DNA of 64,000 bases from Azonexus fungiphilus (lineage in GTDB: Bacteria; Pseudomonadota; Gammaproteobacteria; Burkholderiales; Rhodocyclaceae): NCBI RefSeq assembly GCF_003634965.1, contig NZ_RBXP01000013.1:186001-250000 (forward strand). The letters are read 5' to 3'. This document shows positions 1 to 58,740 of the stretch, one piece after another. Every line of letters starts with the position of its first letter. Position 1 is the stretch's first letter. The notes below the pieces were generated by a model. It was not told the origin of the DNA. It did not search any database and was given only the letters and a program-made list of their open reading frames with translations. The translations under genes and the position numbers were made by a program.

Positions 1-1163
1 CCCTCGGTCACCGCCAGCTTCTCGTTGAGCTTGTCGAGGTAAGGCGCGCGGACCTTGTCGATCAGCGCCTGCATCGCCGGATCGGCCGGCAGCAGGTTGG
101 CGAACACCGGCAGCAGCTTGTAGCGGTAGCCGGCGATCTTGCCGTTCCTGACATCGAAGTCGAGCACGCCGAGATACTTGCCGTTGGAGCCGGCATTGGT
201 CACCAGCGTCTGGCCGCCGGCATTCTTCACCACCACCGGCGCCGGCATGCCGTCGTGGGTGTGGCCACCCATGATCGCGTCGATGCCGCGGATGCGCGAG
301 GCCATCTTGAGGTCGACATCCATGCCGTTGTGCGACAGCACGACGACGACCTGGGCGCCCTTGGCGCGGGCCTCGTCGACCACTGCCTGCATGTTCTCCT
401 CCTGGATGCCGTAGCTCCAGTTCGGCACCTGCCAGCGCGGGTTGGCGATCGGCGTGTAGGGAAAGGCCTGGCCGACGATGGCCACCGGCACACCGTTGAT
501 GTTCTTGATCACGTAGGGCTTGAACACCGGATCGCCGAAATCGGTGGTCTTGACGTTCTGGGCGACGATATCGACGACACCGGCGAAATCCTTCTCCTCG
601 ATTTCCTTGACCCGCTCCTCGCCGTAGGTCGCTTCCCAGTGCAGCGTCATCACATTGACGCCGAGCGCCTTGCAGGCATCGACCATGTCCTGCGCGTTGG
701 TCCACAAGGCGGTGCCGGACCCCTGCCAGGTGTCGCCGCCGTCGAGCAGCAGCGCTCCCGGACGGCTCCCCCGGATACGCTTGACCAGCGTCGCCAGGTG
801 GGCGAAGCCGCCGACCTTGCCGTAGGTTTCGGCCGCCCGGGCGAAATCGAGGTAGCTGTAGGCATGCGCCTCCAGGCTGTTCGGCTTGAAGCCGAAATGC
901 CTGAGCAGGTGCTCGCCGACCAGGTGCGGCACCTTGCCGAACTGTTCGCCGAAACCGAGGTTGACGCTCGGCTCGCGGAAATAGATCGGCTGCAGCTGCG
1001 CGTGGCAGTCGGTGATGTGCAGCAGGCTGACGTTGCCGAAGCGGGGCAGGTCGTACAGCCGGGCGGCGCCTTTCTCGGCGCGGGCGAAATCGCTGTGCAG
1101 GGTCATGCCGCCGGCCGCGGCGACAGCCATGACCTGGAGAAACTCGCGACGATTCATGCTCAT
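1..1163 (-). CDS. soxB: Thiosulfohydrolase SoxB (3' end beyond window)
   Basis: Periplasmic dinuclear-manganese enzyme of the Sox system that hydrolytically releases sulfate from the thiosulfonate carried on SoxY. About 387 codons are visible; the C-terminus lies past the left edge. The start at 1163 reads MSMNRREFLQ and is preceded by GAAGGA. The N-terminus looks like a Tat-type leader (RREFLQ then a hydrophobic stretch). Metallophosphatase-family motifs are visible: HITDCHAQ, LLDGGDTWQGSG, VVVLSHNGMDVD and GGHTHDG, which carry the metal ligands. It is the last visible gene of the sox operon, 59 nt after soxX. The identification is secure from motifs and context. Confidence 0.96.
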   Translation of the reverse strand, partial: MSMNRREFLQVMAVAAAGGMTLHSDFARAEKGAARLYDLPRFGNVSLLHITDCHAQLQPIYFREPSVNLGFGEQFGKVPHLVGEHLLRHFGFKPNSLEAHAYSYLDFARAAETYGKVGGFAHLATLVKRIRGSRPGALLLDGGDTWQGSGTALWTNAQDMVDACKALGVNVMTLHWEATYGEERVKEIEEKDFAGVVDIVAQNVKTTDFGDPVFKPYVIKNINGVPVAIVGQAFPYTPIANPRWQVPNWSYGIQEENMQAVVDEARAKGAQVVVVLSHNGMDVDLKMASRIRGIDAIMGGHTHDGMPAPVVVKNAGGQTLVTNAGSNGKYLGVLDFDVRNGKIAGYRYKLLPVFANLLPADPAMQALIDKVRAPYLDKLNEKLAVTE

Positions 1164-1178
1164 GGGGGATCCTTCAGG

Positions 1179-1206
1179 AAAACCCGGCCGGACGGCGCCG
1201 GCCGGG
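1179..1206 (-). terminator. GC-rich intercistronic hairpin between soxX and soxB
   Basis: Arms 1183-1189 and 1200-1206 (CCCGGCC / GGCCGGG) enclose a 10-nt loop. In the transcript the stem is followed by UUUU. It lies between the soxX stop and the soxB ribosome binding site. It may be a partial terminator or an mRNA-stability element that lowers soxB expression relative to soxX. The short U run makes full termination doubtful. Confidence 0.4.
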
Positions 1207-1222
1207 CAGGTTCACGCAAGCG

Positions 1223-1828
1223 TCATTTCTTGTTGACCGGCGACGCGGGATCGAACAGGAAGGCCATCAGATCCTTGATCTGCTGCTCGGTGAGAATCTC
1301 GGCGTCGCCGTTGCGGGGCATGTTGCTGCAGGCGTTGAAGGCCTTCGCGTTATAGATCTTGCCCCAGGTGTAGCGGACGACATCGTCGGCGTTGCCGCGC
1401 AGCTTGCCGTATTCGAGCAGGCTGGGCCCGATCGTCCCGTAGGAGACCTCGTGATGGCTCATCTGGTGGCAGTTGTAGCAACCACCGCCGTTGTCGTGCG
1501 GCGTCTTGTCGGTCCAGGTCAGGCCACGGCCGCTGACGGCGATCTTCTCGCCCTCCTTCCAGTTGCCGAAGTACTTGCCGTCGGCCGGATAGCGGATGGT
1601 CTTCAACTGCTCGGCCTCGATCCGCGCCATCTCCGCCTTCGCCGGCTGCTTGTCCTGAGAGCAGGCCTTCTGGAAGTCGAGTTGGTACATGCGATGCTTG
1701 GCGGCGATGCCGGTCGTCTTGAACGAACGGTCCATCATCGCCTTGAACTCGGCGTAGGTGTCCTCGCTGCCGGCCCAGGCGGCCGGCATGGCGAACAGGC
1801 AGAACGCCAGCGTGCTGATCTTTTTCAT
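1223..1828 (-). CDS. soxX: Cytochrome c SoxX, SoxAX small subunit
   Basis: Monoheme partner of SoxA; the periplasmic SoxAX complex oxidatively couples thiosulfate to the SoxY cysteine. The protein has 201 residues with a Sec signal peptide ending near AWAG. It carries one heme c motif (CYNCH), the GPSL motif downstream, and a likely methionine axial ligand in ACSNMPRNG. The C-terminal helix (LTEQQIKDLMAFLF) is typical of class I cytochromes. It is somewhat long for SoxX, with an N-terminal insert before the heme. It starts 10 nt after the soxA stop, so the two are co-transcribed. Confidence 0.93.
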   Translation of the reverse strand: MKKISTLAFCLFAMPAAWAGSEDTYAEFKAMMDRSFKTTGIAAKHRMYQLDFQKACSQDKQPAKAEMARIEAEQLKTIRYPADGKYFGNWKEGEKIAVSGRGLTWTDKTPHDNGGGCYNCHQMSHHEVSYGTIGPSLLEYGKLRGNADDVVRYTWGKIYNAKAFNACSNMPRNGDAEILTEQQIKDLMAFLFDPASPVNKK

Positions 1829-1838
1829 GTTCGCCTCC

Positions 1839-2648
1839 TCAGCGCTTGATACCGGGGGTCACGACCTTGCCGCCGTTGGCGGTCGCCGCCAGATAGACGG
1901 ACAGGGCGATGGTCGCGTCGGAGCCGTAGATCGGCTCGGCGGTCCGCTGCTGCCGGAAGCAGTCGTTGAGACGATGCTGCATGGTCCAGAACTGGCCGTT
2001 CGAGACCCGGTAGGCGGGCCAGCTGCCCCAGCCAGAGGCGGCGCCTGCCTGGGTGCGCAGGTCGGGCAGCTCCTGCATGCGGATGCGCTTGCCCTGGTCG
2101 CCGTGACAGGTCGCGCAGGAGAAGTCCATCGGCCCGGTGCGGTAATAGAAAGCCAGCTTGCCCATCTCGTACATCTTCTTCATTTCGGGCGGACGCATGT
2201 CGATGCGGATCTTGTGACCGTTCGACGCAGTGACGACGTAGGCGACCAGCGCCGCCATCTTTTCCTTCTCGCCCTTCAGCCAGCCAGCCTTGACCACGGC
2301 CTGGGGATCGATGCCCTGCAGGGTTTCCATGCAGGTCATCAGGCGCGTCTCCAGGTCCTGGACCTTGCCGGTGTCCTTGAAGAAACGCGGCAACTGGGCC
2401 GAAGCGCCCTTGATCACGCCCGGACCGAGGCCGAGGTCGCACTGCTCGAGCGAGGCGTTTTTCGGTCCGCGCGGCATTTTCCAGAGCTCTTCGCCCTCGG
2501 CCGCGACCAGTTCCGAGGGGTTGCCGTCGGCCAGCGCCTCGCGGTAGGCGTTGATGCCGTCGAGCAGTTCGTCGCCGGCCTGGGCCAGCGGCACGACCGC
2601 CAGGCCGGCAAGCAGGGCCAGGCGGATGGATTTCTGTGGGTTCACCAT
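1839..2648 (-). CDS. soxA: Cytochrome c SoxA, SoxAX catalytic subunit
   Basis: L-cysteine S-thiosulfotransferase subunit, about 269 residues from the start at 2648 (MVNPQKSIRL), chosen because GGAGG lies a few bases upstream; an in-frame ATG at 2675 lacks such a site. A signal peptide ends near AQAG. One heme c motif is present (CATCH). The cysteine in NDCFRQQR matches the persulfide-bearing axial ligand of SoxA. Cysteines in EQCDLG and LMTCMET stand where diheme SoxA has its first heme region, so this is a monoheme type. It is flanked by soxZ and soxX. Confidence 0.93.
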   Translation of the reverse strand: MVNPQKSIRLALLAGLAVVPLAQAGDELLDGINAYREALADGNPSELVAAEGEELWKMPRGPKNASLEQCDLGLGPGVIKGASAQLPRFFKDTGKVQDLETRLMTCMETLQGIDPQAVVKAGWLKGEKEKMAALVAYVVTASNGHKIRIDMRPPEMKKMYEMGKLAFYYRTGPMDFSCATCHGDQGKRIRMQELPDLRTQAGAASGWGSWPAYRVSNGQFWTMQHRLNDCFRQQRTAEPIYGSDATIALSVYLAATANGGKVVTPGIKR

Positions 2649-2674
2649 GTACTCCTCCATGTTGTGGTGCTGCA

Positions 2675-2705
2675 ACCGGATACGGTCTGGCGCCGTCTGT
2701 CCGGT
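2675..2705 (-). other. Imperfect hairpin between soxZ and soxA
   Basis: Arms ACCGGA (2675-2680) and TCCGGT (2700-2705) with an inner ACGG/CCGT pairing (2682-2685, 2693-2696). It lies in the 103-nt gap between soxZ and soxA, just upstream of the soxA ribosome binding site. No U run follows, so it is more likely an mRNA processing or stability element than a terminator. Confidence 0.3.
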
Positions 2706-2751
2706 AGCGGAAGCGCCCCTCCCAGGACGCCCCCGAGACGGTCGATGCCGG

Positions 2752-3066
2752 TCAGGCGATCGCGGCTTCGTCGGTGCGCGATTCGCCCTTGTTGTCCTTC
2801 CAGGAAATCGCGACCTTGTCGCCGGCGGCGCCGCCCTTGAAGCGGAAAGCCAGGTAGGGATTCTTCGAGATCGCGGTGCCGAACTCCGACGACAGGACCA
2901 GCTTGCCGTTGTGCGTCGCGGTCAGTTCGGTGATGAACCACGCCGGGATGACGGCGCCGTTGGCGTCCTTGCGCTGGCCGGTTTCCATTTCGTGGGCGAT
3001 CAGCGCCTTGACTTCGGTGACGCCGTCCTTGACTGCGGCGCGGATGCGCATGGGCTTGGTTGCCAT
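2752..3066 (-). CDS. soxZ: Sulfur-compound chelating protein SoxZ
   Basis: Small beta-sandwich partner of SoxY; the SoxYZ heterodimer is the periplasmic carrier on which sulfur intermediates are processed. It has 104 residues, the normal size. It has no signal peptide, which fits the family because SoxZ is exported together with Tat-targeted SoxY. Characteristic segments include MRIRAAV, LIAHEMETGQRKD and NPYLAFRFKGGAAGD. The start at 3066 follows AAGGAG. It is 36 nt downstream of soxY. Confidence 0.95.
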   Translation of the reverse strand: MATKPMRIRAAVKDGVTEVKALIAHEMETGQRKDANGAVIPAWFITELTATHNGKLVLSSEFGTAISKNPYLAFRFKGGAAGDKVAISWKDNKGESRTDEAAIA

Positions 3067-3102
3067 AAGATATCTCCTTGAATTCGTGTAGTTGATGACC
3101 GC

Positions 3103-3570
3103 TCAGCCGCCGCAGCCGCCGAGGGTGACCTTGATTTCCTTGGTCGCCATGTAGAACTTGTCGCCGGCCTTGACCAGCGCGTAAACGTTCGAGGTCTGAC
3201 CCATCTTGACCCGGGTCTGGACATTCGCCTCGGTGCCCTCGGGCAACTTGAAGCTGCCGGCCAGCGCGTTCGGGTTCTTGTCGATCAGGATCGCGATCAT
3301 CGTCGTGCCGGCGATCGCCGAGGTCACGCCCACCGGCACCACGGCGCCGTTTTCGGCAATGTCCGGGCCGGTCAGCTGGACATCCTTGCTGTCGGCCGGC
3401 TGGGTCGCGCCCAGGGCTTTCAGCGTATCGGCCATGCTCTTGGCCTCGAAAGCCGCCTTGTTCCAGTCGGCCAGGGCAATCCCCGGCGCGATCAGGCCGG
3501 CGGCAGCCAGGGCGCCGAGGACGGCGGCACCGGTACCGGTTTTCAGGACGTTGCGACGTTGCTTGTTCAT
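3103..3570 (-). CDS. soxY: Sulfur carrier protein SoxY
   Basis: Carries the sulfur substrate on a cysteine in a flexible C-terminal tail. The protein (155 residues) ends in GGCGG, the diagnostic SoxY swinging arm with the reactive cysteine. The N-terminus has a Tat-like leader with RRNVLK followed by an Ala/Gly-rich hydrophobic segment. The start at 3570 is preceded by AGGAG. It precedes soxZ, as expected for the SoxYZ pair. Confidence 0.97.
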   Translation of the reverse strand: MNKQRRNVLKTGTGAAVLGALAAAGLIAPGIALADWNKAAFEAKSMADTLKALGATQPADSKDVQLTGPDIAENGAVVPVGVTSAIAGTTMIAILIDKNPNALAGSFKLPEGTEANVQTRVKMGQTSNVYALVKAGDKFYMATKEIKVTLGGCGG

Positions 3571-3595
3571 GATTTCTCCTCTGGTGAAATGGGGT

Positions 3596-4387
3596 TCAAT
3601 GCCCGGTCTTGTCCGCCGGCTGGTCCACGGTGCGAACGCCGCGGACCGGGCCGAACGTACGGTTCTGCTCTTCCAGGTTGCCGTGTGCCGTGCGGGCGTA
3701 CCCGGGCAGCACCGAACCGACTTTGACTTCCTTCTTGCAGTCCTTCATGCAGGCGACGTTCCGCACATCCGGCCGGCCGCCGTTGCCGATCCCGCCCCTG
3801 GCCGCCGGCGCCCCCGGCCACAGGCCGTGGTCGGTGGTCATGCCGTTGCGGTTGGGCATCAGTTTCTGGACTTCGGCGATGTTCTTGTCGGACAACACGA
3901 AGTCCTCCGGAACGATCTCCGCCAGATTCAGGAAGTAGGCAAGGATCGCGTAGACCTCGTCCGGCTTCAAGGATTTCGGCTCGGTCCAGGGCATCGCCCG
4001 ATAAATGTAGTCCCACAGCGTCGAGATCGTCGCCACCTTGGTGAAGGTGGTGCGCTGCGGGATGCTGTCGGTGAGGTAGCCGCCAACCCGGCCGGCCTTG
4101 ATGTCGTCCTTGGTCGTGCCGCCGATCAAGGGCGTGAACACCTCGTTCGACTCGCCGAAGGAACCATGGCACGAGGCGCACTTGTTCTCGAACAGGTCGT
4201 TGCCGTCAGCCACCTTGCCCGACCCGGCGGGCAGGCCCTTGAAATCCGGGCGGACATCGATGTCCCAGGCCTTGACCTCGGCCGCCGTCGCCGGACGCCC
4301 GACCCCCTTGTAGCCTTCGAAGGCCAGGGCACTGCCGGCAAGCGCGGCCAGCACCACGAAGCAAATCGGTTTAGAGAACCTGGACAT
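3596..4387 (-). CDS. soxD: SoxD-type cytochrome c, sulfane dehydrogenase subunit
   Basis: Cytochrome partner of molybdenum protein SoxC; SoxCD removes six electrons from the sulfane sulfur bound to SoxY. The start at 4387 (MSRFSKPICF) follows GGGGAG and overlaps the soxC end by 17 nt. The 263-residue protein has a signal peptide ending near ALAF and one heme c motif, C70-A-S-C-H74. A second cysteine pair (CMKDC) lies near residue 210 but is not a CxxCH. The protein is shorter than Paracoccus-type diheme SoxD and lacks a second heme domain. A sulfite-dehydrogenase cytochrome is the alternative, but soxC-soxYZ context favours SoxD. Confidence 0.85.
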   Translation of the reverse strand: MSRFSKPICFVVLAALAGSALAFEGYKGVGRPATAAEVKAWDIDVRPDFKGLPAGSGKVADGNDLFENKCASCHGSFGESNEVFTPLIGGTTKDDIKAGRVGGYLTDSIPQRTTFTKVATISTLWDYIYRAMPWTEPKSLKPDEVYAILAYFLNLAEIVPEDFVLSDKNIAEVQKLMPNRNGMTTDHGLWPGAPAARGGIGNGGRPDVRNVACMKDCKKEVKVGSVLPGYARTAHGNLEEQNRTFGPVRGVRTVDQPADKTGH

Positions 4388-5717
4388 TGCTGATCTCCCC
4401 GCTTTCGGCAACCTTCCACGTCTGGATGGCGTTGTTGTGATAGATCGATTTCGAGCCGCGCACTGCGCGCAACTGCCCGTAGGACGGCTGCACATAACCG
4501 GTTTCGTCGACCGCCCGCGACTGCAGCATCGCCGGCTTGCCGTCCCAGACCCAGTTCATGTTGAAGCGGGTCAGCGCCTTGTTCTGCACAGGTCCTTCGA
4601 TGCGTGCCGGCTGCCAGTTGATGCCACCATCGGTCGACACGTCGACACGGGTGATTTTGCCGCGCCCCGACCAGGCAATCCCGGAGACGTTGTAGAACCC
4701 CTTCTCCAGAAGACGCTGACCGCCGGACGGCGTGGTGATCACCGACTTGCATTCCTGGATCGAGGTGTATTGGCGGTGCAGGCCATCCGGCATCAGGTCG
4801 ATGTAATGCACCGCTTCGTCCTTGGTCGCCCAGGGCTTGTCGCCAACCTCGATGCGGCGCAGCCACTTGACCCAGGAGACTCCCTGCACGCCGGGCACCA
4901 CCAGACGCAGGGGATAGCCGTTTTCCGGCCGCAGCATCTCGCCGTTCATGCCGTAGGCGACGAAAACCTCGCCGTTCTCGACCATCTCCATCGGAATCGT
5001 CCGCGTCATCGACGAGCCGTCGGCGCCTTCGGCGAGCACGAAACGCGCTTTCTTGTAATCGACACCGCAATCCTCGAGCAGCAGACGCAGCGGCACCCCG
5101 GTGAACTCCGAGCAGGACAGCATGCCGTGGGTGTACTGGACGGTCGGCACGGCGACGTTGCCCCACTCGAGGCCGGTATTGGCACCACATTCGATGAAAT
5201 GGATGCGCGACACCGACGGCAGGCGCATCAGGTCGTCCATCGTGTACACCTTCGGCTGCTTCAGGAAGGCCGGATCGGAAGCATTGATCATCAGTCGGTG
5301 CACCGCCGGATCGACATCGTGCCAGCCCTGGTGATGACGCTCGAAATGCAGGCCGGAGGGAGTGATGATCCCGAACAACCCCTGCAATGGCGTGAACGAC
5401 ACCGAGGCCTGGCCGACCCGGGTCAGTCCCGGCGATTCGCGACGCAATAACTGGCTCTCGTATTTCGACGGCTGCCCGTAAGGATTCATCGCCACCGGCA
5501 TGCCCAGCGTCTTCGACCAGTCCGGCAGATTGAGGATGGCCGGATCGCCCTCGCCGGCGCGGGCCGCAACCGGCGCCGCCAGTGCCGCACCGGCGGCAAT
5601 GAAGCTCTTGCGCAGGAAATCACGCCGTCCGGCGGCGACCGCCTTGACCTGCGCCTCGCTGAGAAAACTCTCCGGCGCAGGTCGCAGACGCCCCGGCTGT
5701 TTCGATAGATCACCCAT
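4371..5717 (-). CDS. soxC: Sulfane dehydrogenase molybdenum subunit SoxC
   Basis: Molybdopterin protein of the sulfite oxidase family, 448 residues. The start at 5717 (MGDLSKQPGR) follows GGAGGGGA; an ATG at 5747 has no comparable site. A Tat leader is visible (RRDFLRKSF, then an Ala-rich core ending AARA). The molybdenum-ligating cysteine is in FIECGANTG. The C-terminal half has the Mo-co dimerisation fold (ITRVDVSTDGGINWQ, NWVWDG). It heads the structural sox genes, 26 nt after the ArsR-type regulator. Co-occurrence with soxB predicts full oxidation to sulfate without obligatory sulfur globules. Confidence 0.94.
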   Translation of the reverse strand: MGDLSKQPGRLRPAPESFLSEAQVKAVAAGRRDFLRKSFIAAGAALAAPVAARAGEGDPAILNLPDWSKTLGMPVAMNPYGQPSKYESQLLRRESPGLTRVGQASVSFTPLQGLFGIITPSGLHFERHHQGWHDVDPAVHRLMINASDPAFLKQPKVYTMDDLMRLPSVSRIHFIECGANTGLEWGNVAVPTVQYTHGMLSCSEFTGVPLRLLLEDCGVDYKKARFVLAEGADGSSMTRTIPMEMVENGEVFVAYGMNGEMLRPENGYPLRLVVPGVQGVSWVKWLRRIEVGDKPWATKDEAVHYIDLMPDGLHRQYTSIQECKSVITTPSGGQRLLEKGFYNVSGIAWSGRGKITRVDVSTDGGINWQPARIEGPVQNKALTRFNMNWVWDGKPAMLQSRAVDETGYVQPSYGQLRAVRGSKSIYHNNAIQTWKVAESGEISNVQVL

Positions 5718-5743
5718 AAGCTTGTCCCCTCCGTTCGATTTAT

Positions 5744-6079
5744 TCACTGACTGCCAGGCGTGGTCGTTATCCCCAGGTGCTCGCCAATGTCACGGCTGGC
5801 CACCGTGATGCTGACGGTCCTGCAGATATCGACGAAATTCGGGTCGACGACGCGGTAGTAGACCGAACTGCCCTCACGCCGCCGGCCAACGACGCCGGCG
5901 CGGTAGAGGATGTTCAGGTGGCGCGAGATGTTCGCCTGCGTCAGGCCGACCTGATCGACGACCTCATGGACGGGACGCTCCTCGCCGCACAGGCAGGAAA
6001 GGATGCGCAGGCGCGTCGGATCAGCCAGCAGGCTGAAGTAGTGCGCCACTTGCTCGAATACTTGGCTTGTCTCGTCCAT
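5744..6079 (-). CDS. ArsR/SmtB-family regulator of the sox operon
   Basis: Winged-helix repressor, 111 residues from the start at 6079 (MDETSQVFEQ). The recognition helix is evident in LTQANISRHLNILYRAG, followed by the beta-wing GRRREGSSVYYRV. Cysteines at about 29, 31 and 86 could form a thiol or persulfide switch like that of BigR/SqrR/SoxR-type ArsR proteins, but the spacing was not checked by alignment. No metal-binding motif is obvious. It is the first gene ahead of soxC and divergent from fccA, so it probably controls both directions in response to reduced sulfur. An in-frame upstream start at 6208 is unlikely because it would encode the AT-rich control region. Confidence 0.85.
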   Translation of the reverse strand: MDETSQVFEQVAHYFSLLADPTRLRILSCLCGEERPVHEVVDQVGLTQANISRHLNILYRAGVVGRRREGSSVYYRVVDPNFVDICRTVSITVASRDIGEHLGITTTPGSQ

Positions 6080-54155: not shown

Positions 54156-54599
54156 ATGAGCGAATCCCTGCACCTCGTCTGCCCGCACTGTGTTGCGGTC
54201 AACCGCCTGCCGCGGGCAAAAACCGGCGCCGCACCGAACTGCGGCCAATGCCATCGACCGCTATTCACCGGCACGCCGCTGGCCGTCGACGGCGACACCT
54301 TCGAGCGCCAGCTGACGCGCAGCGAATTGCCGCTGGTGGTCGACTTCTGGGCCGCCTGGTGCGGCCCCTGCCGGATGATGGCGCCGGCCTTCGCGCAGGC
54401 GGCCAGCGAGCTCGAACCGCAGCTCCGCTTCCTCAAGGTCGACACCGAGGCCAACCCGGCGCTCGCCGCCCGCTTCGCCATCCGCAGCATCCCGACGCTG
54501 ATCGTCTTCCGCGACGGCCGCGAAATCGCCCGGCACAGCGGCGCGCTCGACCTGTCTTCGCTGAAACGCTGGCTGGCACCGCATTCCGGCACGATTTAA
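54156..54599 (+). CDS. trxC: Thioredoxin 2 (TrxC type)
   Basis: Zinc-containing thioredoxin, 147 residues. The N-terminal zinc ribbon has CPHC and CGQC pairs. The thioredoxin domain has the active site WCGPC in DFWAAWCGPCRMM and the cis-proline segment SIPTLIVF. AGGAG precedes the start. Related TrxC proteins respond to oxidative stress. Confidence 0.95.
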   Translation: MSESLHLVCPHCVAVNRLPRAKTGAAPNCGQCHRPLFTGTPLAVDGDTFERQLTRSELPLVVDFWAAWCGPCRMMAPAFAQAASELEPQLRFLKVDTEANPALAARFAIRSIPTLIVFRDGREIARHSGALDLSSLKRWLAPHSGTI

Positions 54600-54622
54600 T
54601 ATTTGCCTTCGGCGGCCGTTAA

Positions 54623-54642
54623 CAGTGTGTCACTGCACACTG
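54623..54642 (+). other. Hairpin just upstream of the EF-hand gene ribosome site
   Basis: Perfect 7-bp stem CAGTGTG / CACACTG with a 6-nt loop, ending 13 nt before the ATG at 54656 and directly ahead of CGGAGG. The dimensions match the hairpin before trxC, though the sequences differ. Confidence 0.45.
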
Positions 54643-54655
54643 CCCGGAGGCCACC

Positions 54656-55687
54656 ATGAAAATCGCCAGCGCCGAACTCCAGATGGCCTCGTCGCACGCC
54701 AGCCTGCAACGCCATGAAGTCAACGAATCGCTGCGCATGTGGGTCGGCCCGCAGCGCCCGGATTTCGAGGGCAACGGCAACGCCCGCCCGGCGGCCGAAG
54801 TTGTCCTTTCCGAAGCCGGCCTCGCCGCCGCCGCGGCCGAAACCAGCGACGCCGCCGCCAGCGAACTCGACACCGACCCGAAGACGACACTGATCCGGAT
54901 GATGCTCGAGATGCTTACCGGCAAGCGCATGCGCGTCTTCAACCAGAGCGACCTGAAAGCGGAGAACGGCGCAGCGGCACCGGCAGCAGCAGCGGCCCAG
55001 GCACAGCAGCCAGCCGGTTACGGCATCGAATACGACTACCACGAGTCCTACACCGAGGCCGAGTACACCAGTTTCTCGGCAAGCGGCACGGTCAAGACTG
55101 CCGACGGCCGCGAAATCGGCTTCCAGCTTGATCTGGCGATGTCGCGGGTGTACCACGAGGAAAGCTCGGTCAGCCTGCGCCTCGGCGACGCGGCCAGGAA
55201 GGTCGATCCGCTCGTCCTCAACTTTGCCGGCAACGCCGCCAGCCTGGTCGACCAGCGCTTTGCCTTCGATCTCGACGCCGACGGCGACGACGAACAGATC
55301 GCCCGCCTGGCCAGCGGCAGCGCCTACCTGGTCTTCGACCGCAACGGCGACGGCCGGATCAACGACGGCCGCGAACTGTTCGGCCCGAACAGCGGCGATG
55401 GCTTCCAGGAACTTGCCGCTCTCGACGATGACGGCAACGGCTGGATCGACGAAAACGATGCCGCCTTCGAGCAACTCAGGCTGTGGCAGCCCGATGGCGA
55501 AGGCGGTGGCGCACTGCGCACGCTCGCCGACAGCGGCGTCGGCGCCATCGCGCTGGCCCGGGTCGCCAGCCCCTTCGACCTGAACACCCACGACAACCGC
55601 ATGCTCGGCCAGGTACGCAGTTCAGGAATATTTTTGCATGAGGATGGGAGGGCTGGCACAATCCAGCAAATAGACCTGACAGTCTGA
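54656..55687 (+). CDS. EF-hand-like calcium-binding protein of unknown function
   Basis: 343 residues, no signal peptide or membrane helix. The N-terminus (MKIASAELQMASSHASLQRH) resembles a conserved uncharacterised family in gamma- and betaproteobacteria, as far as can be recalled. Residues 104-120 are an Ala-rich linker. The C-terminal half has three Asp-rich EF-hand-like loops: DLDADGDDEQ (205-214), DRNGDGRINDGRE (228-240) and DDDGNGWIDEND (257-268). Such loops occur near the ends of RTX-type secreted proteins. A CGGAGG ribosome site precedes it. Possibly an intracellular or secreted calcium-responsive protein; function unknown. Confidence 0.75.
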   Translation: MKIASAELQMASSHASLQRHEVNESLRMWVGPQRPDFEGNGNARPAAEVVLSEAGLAAAAAETSDAAASELDTDPKTTLIRMMLEMLTGKRMRVFNQSDLKAENGAAAPAAAAAQAQQPAGYGIEYDYHESYTEAEYTSFSASGTVKTADGREIGFQLDLAMSRVYHEESSVSLRLGDAARKVDPLVLNFAGNAASLVDQRFAFDLDADGDDEQIARLASGSAYLVFDRNGDGRINDGRELFGPNSGDGFQELAALDDDGNGWIDENDAAFEQLRLWQPDGEGGGALRTLADSGVGAIALARVASPFDLNTHDNRMLGQVRSSGIFLHEDGRAGTIQQIDLTV

Positions 55688-55698
55688 GGGGACTGTCA
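55677..55698 (+). other. Hairpin at the end of the EF-hand gene
   Basis: Perfect 8-bp stem TGACAGTC / GACTGTCA with a 6-nt loop; the stop codon lies at the loop start. No T run follows, so it is not a classic terminator. It ends 28 nt before the chemoreceptor ATG. Confidence 0.4.
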
Positions 55699-55726
55699 AA
55701 ACGACGACAACAAAGGTTACCGAGAC

Positions 55727-57346
55727 ATGCCACGTTTTGCCGACTTGAAGATTTGGGTCCGACTCACCGCTGCAATCTGGGTTGTCCTCGCGCTGATCTG
55801 GGCTGGTGCCATCGTCTGGATGACCCAGGTCAACCGCGACACGGCGATCAAGCAGGCAAAGGATTTCTCGCAAAGCATCCACGAGATGACGATGGCCGGG
55901 CTGACGGGGATGATGATCACCGGCACCGTCGGCCAGCGCGAGGTTTTCCTCGACCAGATCAAGCAATTGTCGATCATCAAGGATCTGCATGTCGCCCGCA
56001 GCGAGGCCGTGGTCAAGCTCTACGGCCCCGACACCAAGAGCAAGCGCGAGCTCGACAGCCTCGAGCAGCAGGTGATGCGCGACGGCAAGCCGTACGTCTC
56101 GGTCGAGCACGAGAACGGCAGCTCCTTCCTGCGCGTGATCAATCCGACCAATGCCTCGCCCAACTACCTCGGCAAGGATTGCATCGTCTGCCACCAGGTC
56201 CCCGAAGGCACGGTTCTCGGCCTGGTCAGCATGAAGGTCTCGCTCGACTCGGTCGAGGCCGAAGTCGCCAGCTTCCGCCTGAAGATCGCTGGCGCCGCAC
56301 TCGGCGCGCTGGGCGCGCTGCTGCTGATCATCTATTTCCTGACCCACCACTTCGTCACCGCGCCGCTCGAGCAGCTGCGCCAGGGACTGCGCGACATCGC
56401 CCGCGGCGAAGGCGACCTGACGCGCCGCCTGCCGGTCAGCGGCAAGGACGAAGTCGGCCAGTCGGCCTATGTCTTCAACGAGATGATGGGCAACTTCCAG
56501 CAACTGGTCAGCCAGGTCCGCGATGCTGCCAGCCAGGTCTCGGCCCGCGTCTCGGCCCTATCCGACAGCGCTGACCGGGTATCGCAGAGTTCGCACCTGC
56601 AGAACGAGAAATCGAACGACGCCGCAGCGGCCGTCGAGCAGCTGGTTTCCAGCATCTCGTCGATCGCCCAGAGCGCCGAGCACGTCCAGCATCAGTCGCA
56701 GGAAAGCCTGGCCAGGGCCAACGAGGGCAGCCGCAACCTGCAGACGCTGCTCGGAGAAATGAACGTCGTCGAGAGCGCAGTCAAGGAAATGGCCGAATCG
56801 GTCAATAACTTCGTGCGCAACACCGAAGCGATCACGACGATGACCCGCGAGGTCAAGGACATCGCCGAGCAGACCAACCTGCTGGCGCTGAATGCCGCCA
56901 TCGAGGCGGCGCGGGCCGGCGAGCAGGGCCGCGGCTTCGCGGTCGTCGCCGACGAAGTGCGCAAGCTGGCAGAAAAATCGTCGCGTTCGGCCAGCGAGAT
57001 CGACTCGATCACTGCCAACCTGAGCGCCCAGTCGGTCGCCGTCCGGCGCAGCATCGAGGCCGGCATTCACCATCTGGAAACCAGCCAGGCAGCCGTTGCC
57101 TCGGTCTCCAGCGTGCTCCAGGCGACCAACGGCTCGGTCAGCGAGGTGGACCACGGTCTCGAGGCGATCGCCAGTGCCACCGACCAGCAGCGCCGTTTCT
57201 CCGGAGACGTCGAGACCAGCATCGAGGCGATCGCCGGCATGGCCCGCGACAATACCGGCGCCGTCGAGCAGACTGCCGGCGCAGCCCACGATCTGAAGCG
57301 CCTGGCCGACGGCCTGGCCAACCTGGTCGGCCGCTTCAAGGTCTGA
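55727..57346 (+). CDS. Methyl-accepting chemotaxis protein with c-type heme sensor domain
   Basis: 539 residues. Membrane helices at about 12-33 and 186-206 bracket a periplasmic domain of about 150 residues that contains C152-I-V-C-H156, a heme c attachment motif, in [20 protein letters not shown]. This fits a heme-binding PAS/DUF3365-like sensor. HAMP follows, then a full signalling hairpin with the conserved tip [36 protein letters not shown]. No C-terminal pentapeptide for CheR tethering is present. It may sense redox state, oxygen or NO and steer motility. Confidence 0.93.
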
Positions 57347-57390
57347 CCGGTAGCCGGCGGCGGCGCCGAATGCCGTCGCCGGGGCCCGGC

Positions 57391-58740
57391 TCAGTCGGGC
57401 GACAGCTCGAGGTTTAGACCGCTGCCGTATTGCGAGCTGGTGGCCGGATTCAGGGCCTTCTGGCCAAGACTGGCGGCAATCTTGTTGACTTCGCGCAGGC
57501 GCCCGATCAGGCGTGCCAGCAGGGCATTGCGCATGCGCTCGCCGAGCTCCTCCGAAGATAGCGCCAGGGCCGAGGCATTGATCTCGACGAAGAGCGTCGG
57601 TTCGAGCGTGACCACGGTGGCGTGGCGCAGGTCGCTCGCCGGATGCAGGAAGGCGACCTCCCCGACCGGCTCGCCCGGACCGAGGCGGCAGAGCGCCTTG
57701 CCGCCGACCGATACTTCGACGCAACCGCTGATGATGATCCCGAAGACCTTGCTGTTGGTACCTTCGCGGATCAGCGCGACATTGGCGGCAACTTCGCGCC
57801 AGACCGAGACACGCAGCACCTCCCACAGTTCGATATTCTCGAACTCGGTGAAGAACTCGGTCCGGCGCAACTGTTCGAAATGCCGGTTATCCTGCGCCGT
57901 TTCGTCGTCGTCGAGAATCTGGTAGCGCACCGCCGAGAGATCCTTGGCCATTTCGGCACCGTTGCGGTAACGGCTGTACAGATCCTTCTCCAGCGCCTTG
58001 CGCAGGATCGCGTTGAGCCCCTCGGGCAGGTTCGGATTGAGCGCGGTGACCGCTGGCGCATCGGTATTGACGATCTTGTACACCAGCGTCGCCTGGTTGT
58101 TGGCGCGAAACGGCAGCCGCCCGGTGAGCAGCTGGAACATCACCACGCCGAGCGAGTAGAGGTCGGTCTTCTGGTTCAGCGGGTAGCCCTTGATCTGCTC
58201 CGGCGACATGTAGGCCGGCGAACCGACGCCCATGATGAAGGTCGAGTCGCGGTCAAGATCCTTGTTCATGTTCAGGGCCAGGCCGAAATCGGCGATCTTG
58301 GCCTCGTCGCCGGCAGCGACCATGATGTTGGCCGGCTTGATGTCGCGGTGGATGATGCCCTGGCGGTAGGCGGCATCGAGCGCCATGCAGCATTTGAAGA
58401 TGATGCCGATGACCCGGTGCATCGGCAGCAGCCTGTCGATGCGACAGTGCTCCTCGAGGCTGAAGCCGTCGACGTACTCCATCGCCAGGTAGGCGAAATC
58501 GTCCTCGACGACAGCGTCGAAGACGCGCACGATGTTCGGATGATCGAGCCGGCGCGAGACCATCCCCTCGTTCTGGAACAGCTTGCGCATGCGCCGCGAC
58601 ATCGCCGCGCAATCCTGGCCGAAGCGGATCACCTTGACCGCCACCTGGCGCGCATTGTCCGGATCGTCGCAAAGATAGACGGTGGCGGTGGCCCCCTTGC
58701 CCAGCTCGCGGATGACGCGGTACTTGCCTATTGATTCCAT
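57391..58740 (-). CDS. Ser/Thr protein kinase fused to cyclic-nucleotide-binding-like domain
   Basis: 449 residues from 58740 (MESIGKYRVIRELGKGATATVY). Hanks-type kinase domain (about 1-270): Gly loop, Lys36 in VAVKVI, catalytic HRDIKPAN with Asp133, DFG in KIADFGLAL and SPAYMSPEQ. The C-terminal part (about 310-420) is a Crp-like cNMP domain with a phosphate-cassette-like GEVAFLHPASDLRHATVV. No membrane helix or PASTA repeat is present, so it is probably cytoplasmic and ligand-regulated. Convergent with the chemoreceptor. Confidence 0.9.
   Translation of the reverse strand: MESIGKYRVIRELGKGATATVYLCDDPDNARQVAVKVIRFGQDCAAMSRRMRKLFQNEGMVSRRLDHPNIVRVFDAVVEDDFAYLAMEYVDGFSLEEHCRIDRLLPMHRVIGIIFKCCMALDAAYRQGIIHRDIKPANIMVAAGDEAKIADFGLALNMNKDLDRDSTFIMGVGSPAYMSPEQIKGYPLNQKTDLYSLGVVMFQLLTGRLPFRANNQATLVYKIVNTDAPAVTALNPNLPEGLNAILRKALEKDLYSRYRNGAEMAKDLSAVRYQILDDDETAQDNRHFEQLRRTEFFTEFENIELWEVLRVSVWREVAANVALIREGTNSKVFGIIISGCVEVSVGGKALCRLGPGEPVGEVAFLHPASDLRHATVVTLEPTLFVEINASALALSSEELGERMRNALLARLIGRLREVNKIAASLGQKALNPATSSQYGSGLNLELSPD

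Follow-up and report, generated by a model that had tools for sequence, protein, structure and literature searches.

The 539-aa methyl-accepting chemotaxis protein (MCP) encoded in the window, by which we mean the whole 64-kb stretch of Azonexus fungiphilus DNA analysed here as part of a 3.5-Mb assembly of 20 contigs, is a new member of the already known heme-c sCache type of sensor, which includes sensors of Geobacter. Covalent attachment of heme to this MCP outside the inner membrane is very probable. To the fuller reading of a heme-c single-Cache chemoreceptor with a redox-gated His/Met switch and redox as the main input we give an even chance, and as the natural signal we favour redox somewhat above nitric oxide (NO). 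Such a receptor would probably let the cell respond to the local redox state or to NO. Sensor structures of heme-c chemoreceptors have been solved for Geobacter, and their natural signal is still unproven in the portion of the literature available to us.

Table 1. Coordinates of the chemoreceptor gene and its features, the preceding gene, and further heme-Cache proteins of the host genome (C, contig; L, locus; all others, window positions)
Feature	Position	Strand	Basis
539-aa methyl-accepting chemotaxis protein	55727..57346, stop codon included	+	ORF; HAMP and MCPsignal above Pfam cut-offs
TM1 core, residues 13-31	55763..55819	+	Kyte-Doolittle scan, peak 2.25
Sensor query, residues 29-192, predicted single Cache domain	55811..56302	+	AlphaFold2 (residues 27-192 folded); Foldseek top match 3b42
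Met63, proposed distal heme ligand	55913..55915	+	register with 3b42_A residue 26; Met in 119/123 rows
C152-I-V-C-H156, c-type heme attachment motif; His156, proposed proximal ligand	56180..56194	+	sequence (codons TGC ATC GTC TGC CAC); 123/123 rows
TM2 core, residues 187-205	56285..56341	+	Kyte-Doolittle scan, peak 2.4
HAMP domain, residues 207-257	56345..56497	+	PF00672, 39.9 bits vs cut-off 25
MCP signalling domain, best stretch, residues 323-504	56693..57238	+	PF00015, 124 bits vs cut-off 34.6
343-aa ORF	54656..55687	+	aspartate-rich, EF-hand-like stretches by reading
Heme-Cache GGDEF protein, 627 aa	C2:159947-160378 (L122:1457-1879)		GGDEF by motif
Heme-Cache protein, 880-aa frame	C12:81610		GGDEF by reading
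Heme-Cache protein	C3:76061		above PF11845 cut-off; kinase-like by reading
Heme-Cache protein	C6:71351		above PF11845 cut-off; kinase-like by reading

The protein shows the architecture of an MCP, with both Pfam domains above their cut-offs, two TM peaks, and HAMP following the second of them. Because the CxxCH motif lies between the two TM helices, with HAMP and MCPsignal after TM2, we placed it in the periplasm, where the periplasmic part takes in about residues 32-184, and the original prediction of a periplasm-facing CIVCH between two membrane helices was thus borne out by sequence, hydropathy and domain order. The 282 residues C-terminal of HAMP would fit the 40-heptad class of signalling domains. 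C152 and C155 are the sole cysteines of the MCP, and a CxxCH would be expected by composition 0.00018 times and was found in none of 20,000 shuffles.

The motif was conserved throughout the related sequences. A similarity search returned 85 distinct related segments, 83 of them with CxxCH, the two others being pieces of 37-38 residues that we took as signalling-domain rather than sensor sequence, and the motif was present in all 25 distant relatives of the sensor. A profile of 32 sensors searched against the ORFs of relatives' loci gave 163 matches in 123 distinct rows, which are akin to each other and were recruited by likeness to the MCP sensor, and hence are not independent. CxxCH, near-universal in sCache_heme domains, was found in every one of these rows, in which R91, P140, C152, C155, H156 and G165 were invariant, and R71 was kept in 122 rows, Met63 in 119, G66 in 118 and His52 in 103. 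Simple motif patterns, applied to ORFs some of which are truncated at contig ends, recognised MCP tips in 99 rows and GGDEF motifs in 16, leaving 8 rows unassigned. For a sensor tree the rows were thinned at 80% identity to 54, to which the MCP of the window was added to give 55; it fell within a 27-row group (support 100/99) composed of MCP rows bar three unclassed. One row from the host genome (L039) had a very long branch and joined the mtr-linked rows described below, a join that may be false.

The AlphaFold2 monomer model of residues 27-192 (62 sequences, mean pLDDT 79.4, pTM 0.77) runs from a long helix through a second helix, strand 1, two helices, strands 2 and 3, a short motif helix and strand 4 to a last helix. 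The predicted fold is that of a Cache domain with CxxCH on the short helix between strands 3 and 4, which is where Figure 1 of PMC12889525 places the heme motif of sCache_heme domains. Foldseek listed 516 PDB matches at E <= 10 and three at E <= 0.001, namely both chains of 3b42 (GSU0935; E 1.8e-5 and 2.4e-5) and one WalK model, with CitA next; the superposition on 3b42 was poor (TM 0.39-0.50, rmsd about 15), perhaps because of its swapped-dimer crystal form. VIA-align 2 ranked heme-free WalK at the top (Z 11.0, 123 aligned, rmsd 3.1). The comparison with DUF3365/Tll0287-type heme domains that had been proposed as a check returned the Cache fold with the motif in the sCache_heme place, and the match to Tll0287 itself (5b82; Z 8.2, 122 aligned, rmsd 4.2) was level with those to many other Cache domains. 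We therefore read the fold match as evidence for a Cache domain, and its heme kind from the motif, the place of the motif and the GSU0935 register.

In this sensor region no family in Pfam or NCBIfam was above cut-off. PF11845 did not pick up the window sensor at E <= 1, matched 15 of 32 aligned family members (best E 0.0057) and reached at best 17.5 bits, against a cut-off of 24.1, on ten distant relatives. PF21563 scored 15.7 bits on the window sensor, under its cut-off of 27, and at best 20.3 bits against the same cut-off on the ten distant relatives, and matched one of the 32 members (E 7.8e-6). In the host genome it missed the window MCP while giving three sub-cut-off matches elsewhere, and because of this and of sub-cut-off control matches in 2 of 14 control genomes PF21563 alone was not used as evidence. 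With phmmer the single sensor matched no PDB sequence at E up to 10, and the 32-sensor profile gave weak matches, best to 3b42 (E 0.017) and 3b47 (E 0.32); the other 15 among the matches listed included many cytochromes aligned just around CxxCH. On its modelled structure the MCP fits the sCache_heme type (Tll0287/DUF3365), an assignment that we made from fold, motif place and register, treating the PF11845 miss as the limit of one profile.

Like the MCP sensors GSU0935 and GSU0582 of Geobacter sulfurreducens (3b42 and 3b47; PF21563, Mcp40H-20_sensor), the window sensor lies between two TM helices and has a Cache/PAS-like fold with CxxCH in register and Met63 in the register of GSU0935 Met60, but it is about 18-19% identical to GSU0935 in the Foldseek alignment and has longer loops ahead of CxxCH. 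With the sCache_heme domains (DUF3365/Tll0287, PF11845) it shares a single Cache, a CxxCH helix between strands 3 and 4 and, in the whole protein, the order TM-sensor-TM-HAMP-MCP, whereas the distal ligand would be Met in the window sensor and is Cys in Tll0287. Members of the same order also have heme-Cache GGDEF proteins, such as that at C2:159947 of the host genome, in which a related sensor (29-30% identical) with CxxCH and Met63 is combined with a GGDEF output, assigned by motif. DcrA of Desulfovibrio vulgaris is a chemotaxis transducer with a c-type heme, and its likeness to the window MCP is by description rather than by sequence. The original prediction had regarded heme-c chemoreceptors as uncommon, a view that is outdated given that PMC12889525 counts thousands of such domains across many phyla, about half of them stand-alone and the remainder joined to an MCP, a kinase or a c-di-GMP enzyme.

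In the alignment of the 32-sensor profile with 3b42, CxxCH corresponds to chain residues 106-110 and Met63 to residue 26. According to PMC8396549, GSU0935 carries a covalent heme with Cys140, Cys143, His144 and Met60 as heme residues, and from the offset of 34 between chain and GSU0935 numbering, residue 26 of 3b42_A is Met60. A Met of the GSU0582/GSU0935 distal type is therefore found in register at position 63, where it is a putative ligand. The same source reports that Met60 is bound to the reduced heme, comes off upon oxidation and is displaced by NO or CO, and that redox potentials differ between the two Geobacter sensors. CcmF was above cut-off in the host genome (438.5 bits) and, together with the invariant CxxCH, the Cache fold, GSU0935 at the top in Foldseek and Tll0287 among the matches, upholds the predicted chemoreceptor with a periplasmic c-type heme site, for which we infer heme attachment. 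By analogy with GSU0935, we would expect His156 and Met63 to be the heme ligands and their ligation to switch with the redox state. In the mechanism that we propose, the cytochrome c maturation system would join heme to C152 and C155, His156 would serve as the proximal ligand, and Met63 on the long first helix would be the distal ligand of the reduced heme, released upon oxidation as in GSU0935. This ligand switch would shift the first helix, and the movement, passed on by the membrane helices and HAMP, would alter CheA activity. The likeliest natural input would be the periplasmic redox state (energy or redox taxis), and NO may act on the same Met switch, as it displaces the equivalent Met in GSU0935.

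The sensor was matched in 58 of the 100 genomes searched and its residues 1-224 in 57 of 369 genomes of a class sample, the own genome included in both counts. The best named relatives belong to Azonexus hydrophilus (orthologs at L042 and L045, sensors 90-92% identical), to Dechloromonas and to related metagenome bins. Members of the ortholog group, some of them in named strains in culture, occur in Dechloromonas, Azonexus, Azospira and further Rhodocyclaceae. In a mostly open-access literature, including those parts of PMC2907700 (the D. aromatica genome) and PMC8846402 that were at hand, we found no description of this ortholog group. We looked for Flagellin_N in 60 genomes, 36 from the genus, and defined orthologs of the MCP by E < 1e-60. 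Among the 36 genus genomes, 27 had both, 5 neither, 2 the ortholog only (G001 and G012) and 2 Flagellin_N only (G003 and G013; Fisher p 0.001) in a table that, like that for nirS below, was hand-sorted and takes no account of shared descent or incomplete assemblies. The ortholog thus tracks Flagellin_N, and the gene therefore goes with swimming, as expected of a chemoreceptor.

The main competitor to redox as the signal is that the same heme domain is chiefly an NO sensor, in which NO produced in the periplasm by denitrification would bind the reduced heme, oust Met63 and make cells swim away from NO or towards it. We regard this as possible but somewhat doubtful. It draws on the displacement of Met60 by NO in the Geobacter sensors (PMC8396549), on nirS in the host genome (E 2.9e-149), and on a signalling-type sCache_heme protein of P. 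azotoformans with a slow NO off-rate, tight binding and no stable oxygen complex, described in PMC12889525, a 2026 preprint which argues for NO as the signal for signalling-type members. The distribution of denitrification genes speaks against it. With nirS defined by PF02239 at E < 1e-90 and searched in 100 genomes, 41 of the 60 genus genomes had both nirS and the ortholog, 9 the ortholog only, 10 nirS only and none neither, showing no association (Fisher p 0.33); nirK was above cut-off in 0 of 36 genus genomes, four of which (G006, G010, G012 and G029) had the ortholog without a strong nirS. A link with denitrification is unsupported by these counts, which lend no support to self-made NO as a needed signal. 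Incomplete genomes and shared descent weaken this counter-evidence, NO could come from neighbours, and NO may still act as a signal.

A set of paralogs linked to mtrA and mtrB bears on the redox reading both ways, their place behind these genes counting for it and their Lys at position 63 against it. In four genomes (G056, G012, G005 and G016; loci L131 at 1008-5851, L167, L170 and L171) the gene immediately downstream of mtrA and mtrB, on their strand, encodes a heme MCP whose sensor is 37-40% identical to that of the window. The mtrA genes each encode 10 CxxCH, all four mtrB places were above cut-off (PF11854, E 1.6e-134 in L131), and each genome has a heme-Cache GGDEF gene some 7-9 kb away. 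Exactly these four among the 123 rows have Lys rather than Met at position 63, and mtrB, sought by profile, was absent from the host genome, so that we claim no mtr link for the window MCP. Since MtrB was found in 28 of 100 genomes (E up to 0.001), the majority of these mtrB genes have no such MCP as a neighbour. In the mostly open-access literature, including the accessible parts of PMC5789149 and PMC6896113, we found no description of MCP genes in mtr operons. These paralogs suggest one concrete redox partner, and a bolder, rather unlikely extension of the redox reading is that the Rhodocyclales branch reads electron flow and not gas, with periplasmic carriers setting the heme redox state by which the cell swims, and the heme of the Lys paralogs perhaps retuned for exchanging electrons with the decaheme conduit itself.

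Three further readings fare worse. It is improbable that some small organic molecule is the ligand of the Cache domain and the heme merely structural or inherited: Cache domains mostly bind ligands, and the structural matches include CitA, DcuS and chemoreceptor ligand domains, but CxxCH and Met63 are among the most strongly kept residues and CxxCH is kept alike with MCP and GGDEF outputs. Less probable still is a heme-based oxygen receptor for aerotaxis, plausible as oxygen taxis is in such bacteria and exposed to oxygen as a periplasmic heme would be, since a stable oxygen complex was seen in 0 of 3 sCache_heme proteins (two wild types and one variant) in PMC12889525, and a distal Met, if bound, blocks the oxygen site. 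Of the three signals offered originally, redox, oxygen and NO, oxygen is accordingly the weakest, and oxygen acting by heme oxidation could in any case amount to the redox reading. That CxxCH serves without heme as a disulfide, metal site or relic is highly improbable, for although the motif by itself is short and heme here is deduced, His156, needless for a plain disulfide, is as invariant as the cysteines, the closest structural match (3b42) holds a covalent heme (PMC8396549) and the host genome has CcmF.

The gene neighbourhood is widely kept, in the order hemH-like, thioredoxin-like, 343-aa ORF, MCP, Ser/Thr-kinase-like (opposite strand), GrpE and DnaK, these names being assigned by reading rather than by profile. 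Across 80 relatives' loci, a number of which end at contig edges, neighbours at 30% coverage or more were the 343-aa ORF in 62, the kinase and GrpE in 61 each, hemH in 58, DnaK in 53 and thioredoxin in 46. The 343-aa ORF matched no Pfam family at E <= 0.01. Its end and the start of the MCP are 39 bases apart, and the two may share a transcript; no sigma-70-like promoter was found in 54500-57500.

The host genome has 39 places resembling the MCP, at 37 of which ORFs were taken, giving 37 distinct ones with the window's included and leaving out C2:159899 (the heme-Cache GGDEF protein) and C8:152936 (weak, E 3.1e-4). Only the window MCP among these 37 chemoreceptor-like ORFs has CxxCH. Heme-Cache profiles matched four further host proteins, all with CxxCH, and from their GGDEF or kinase-like outputs a single type of heme sensor may serve more than one output. 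In another genome of the same order (G082, L137:2333-8334), three distinct heme-Cache MCP genes lie on one strand within 6 kb. A recurring cluster in the genus combines a heme-Cache GGDEF gene, a SPASM-domain gene, a CHASE histidine kinase, a three-CxxCH protein and sometimes a HiPIP-like gene, and was found at L164, L165, L167, L168, L170, L171 and L131:6331-12975, with or without mtrA-mtrB nearby.
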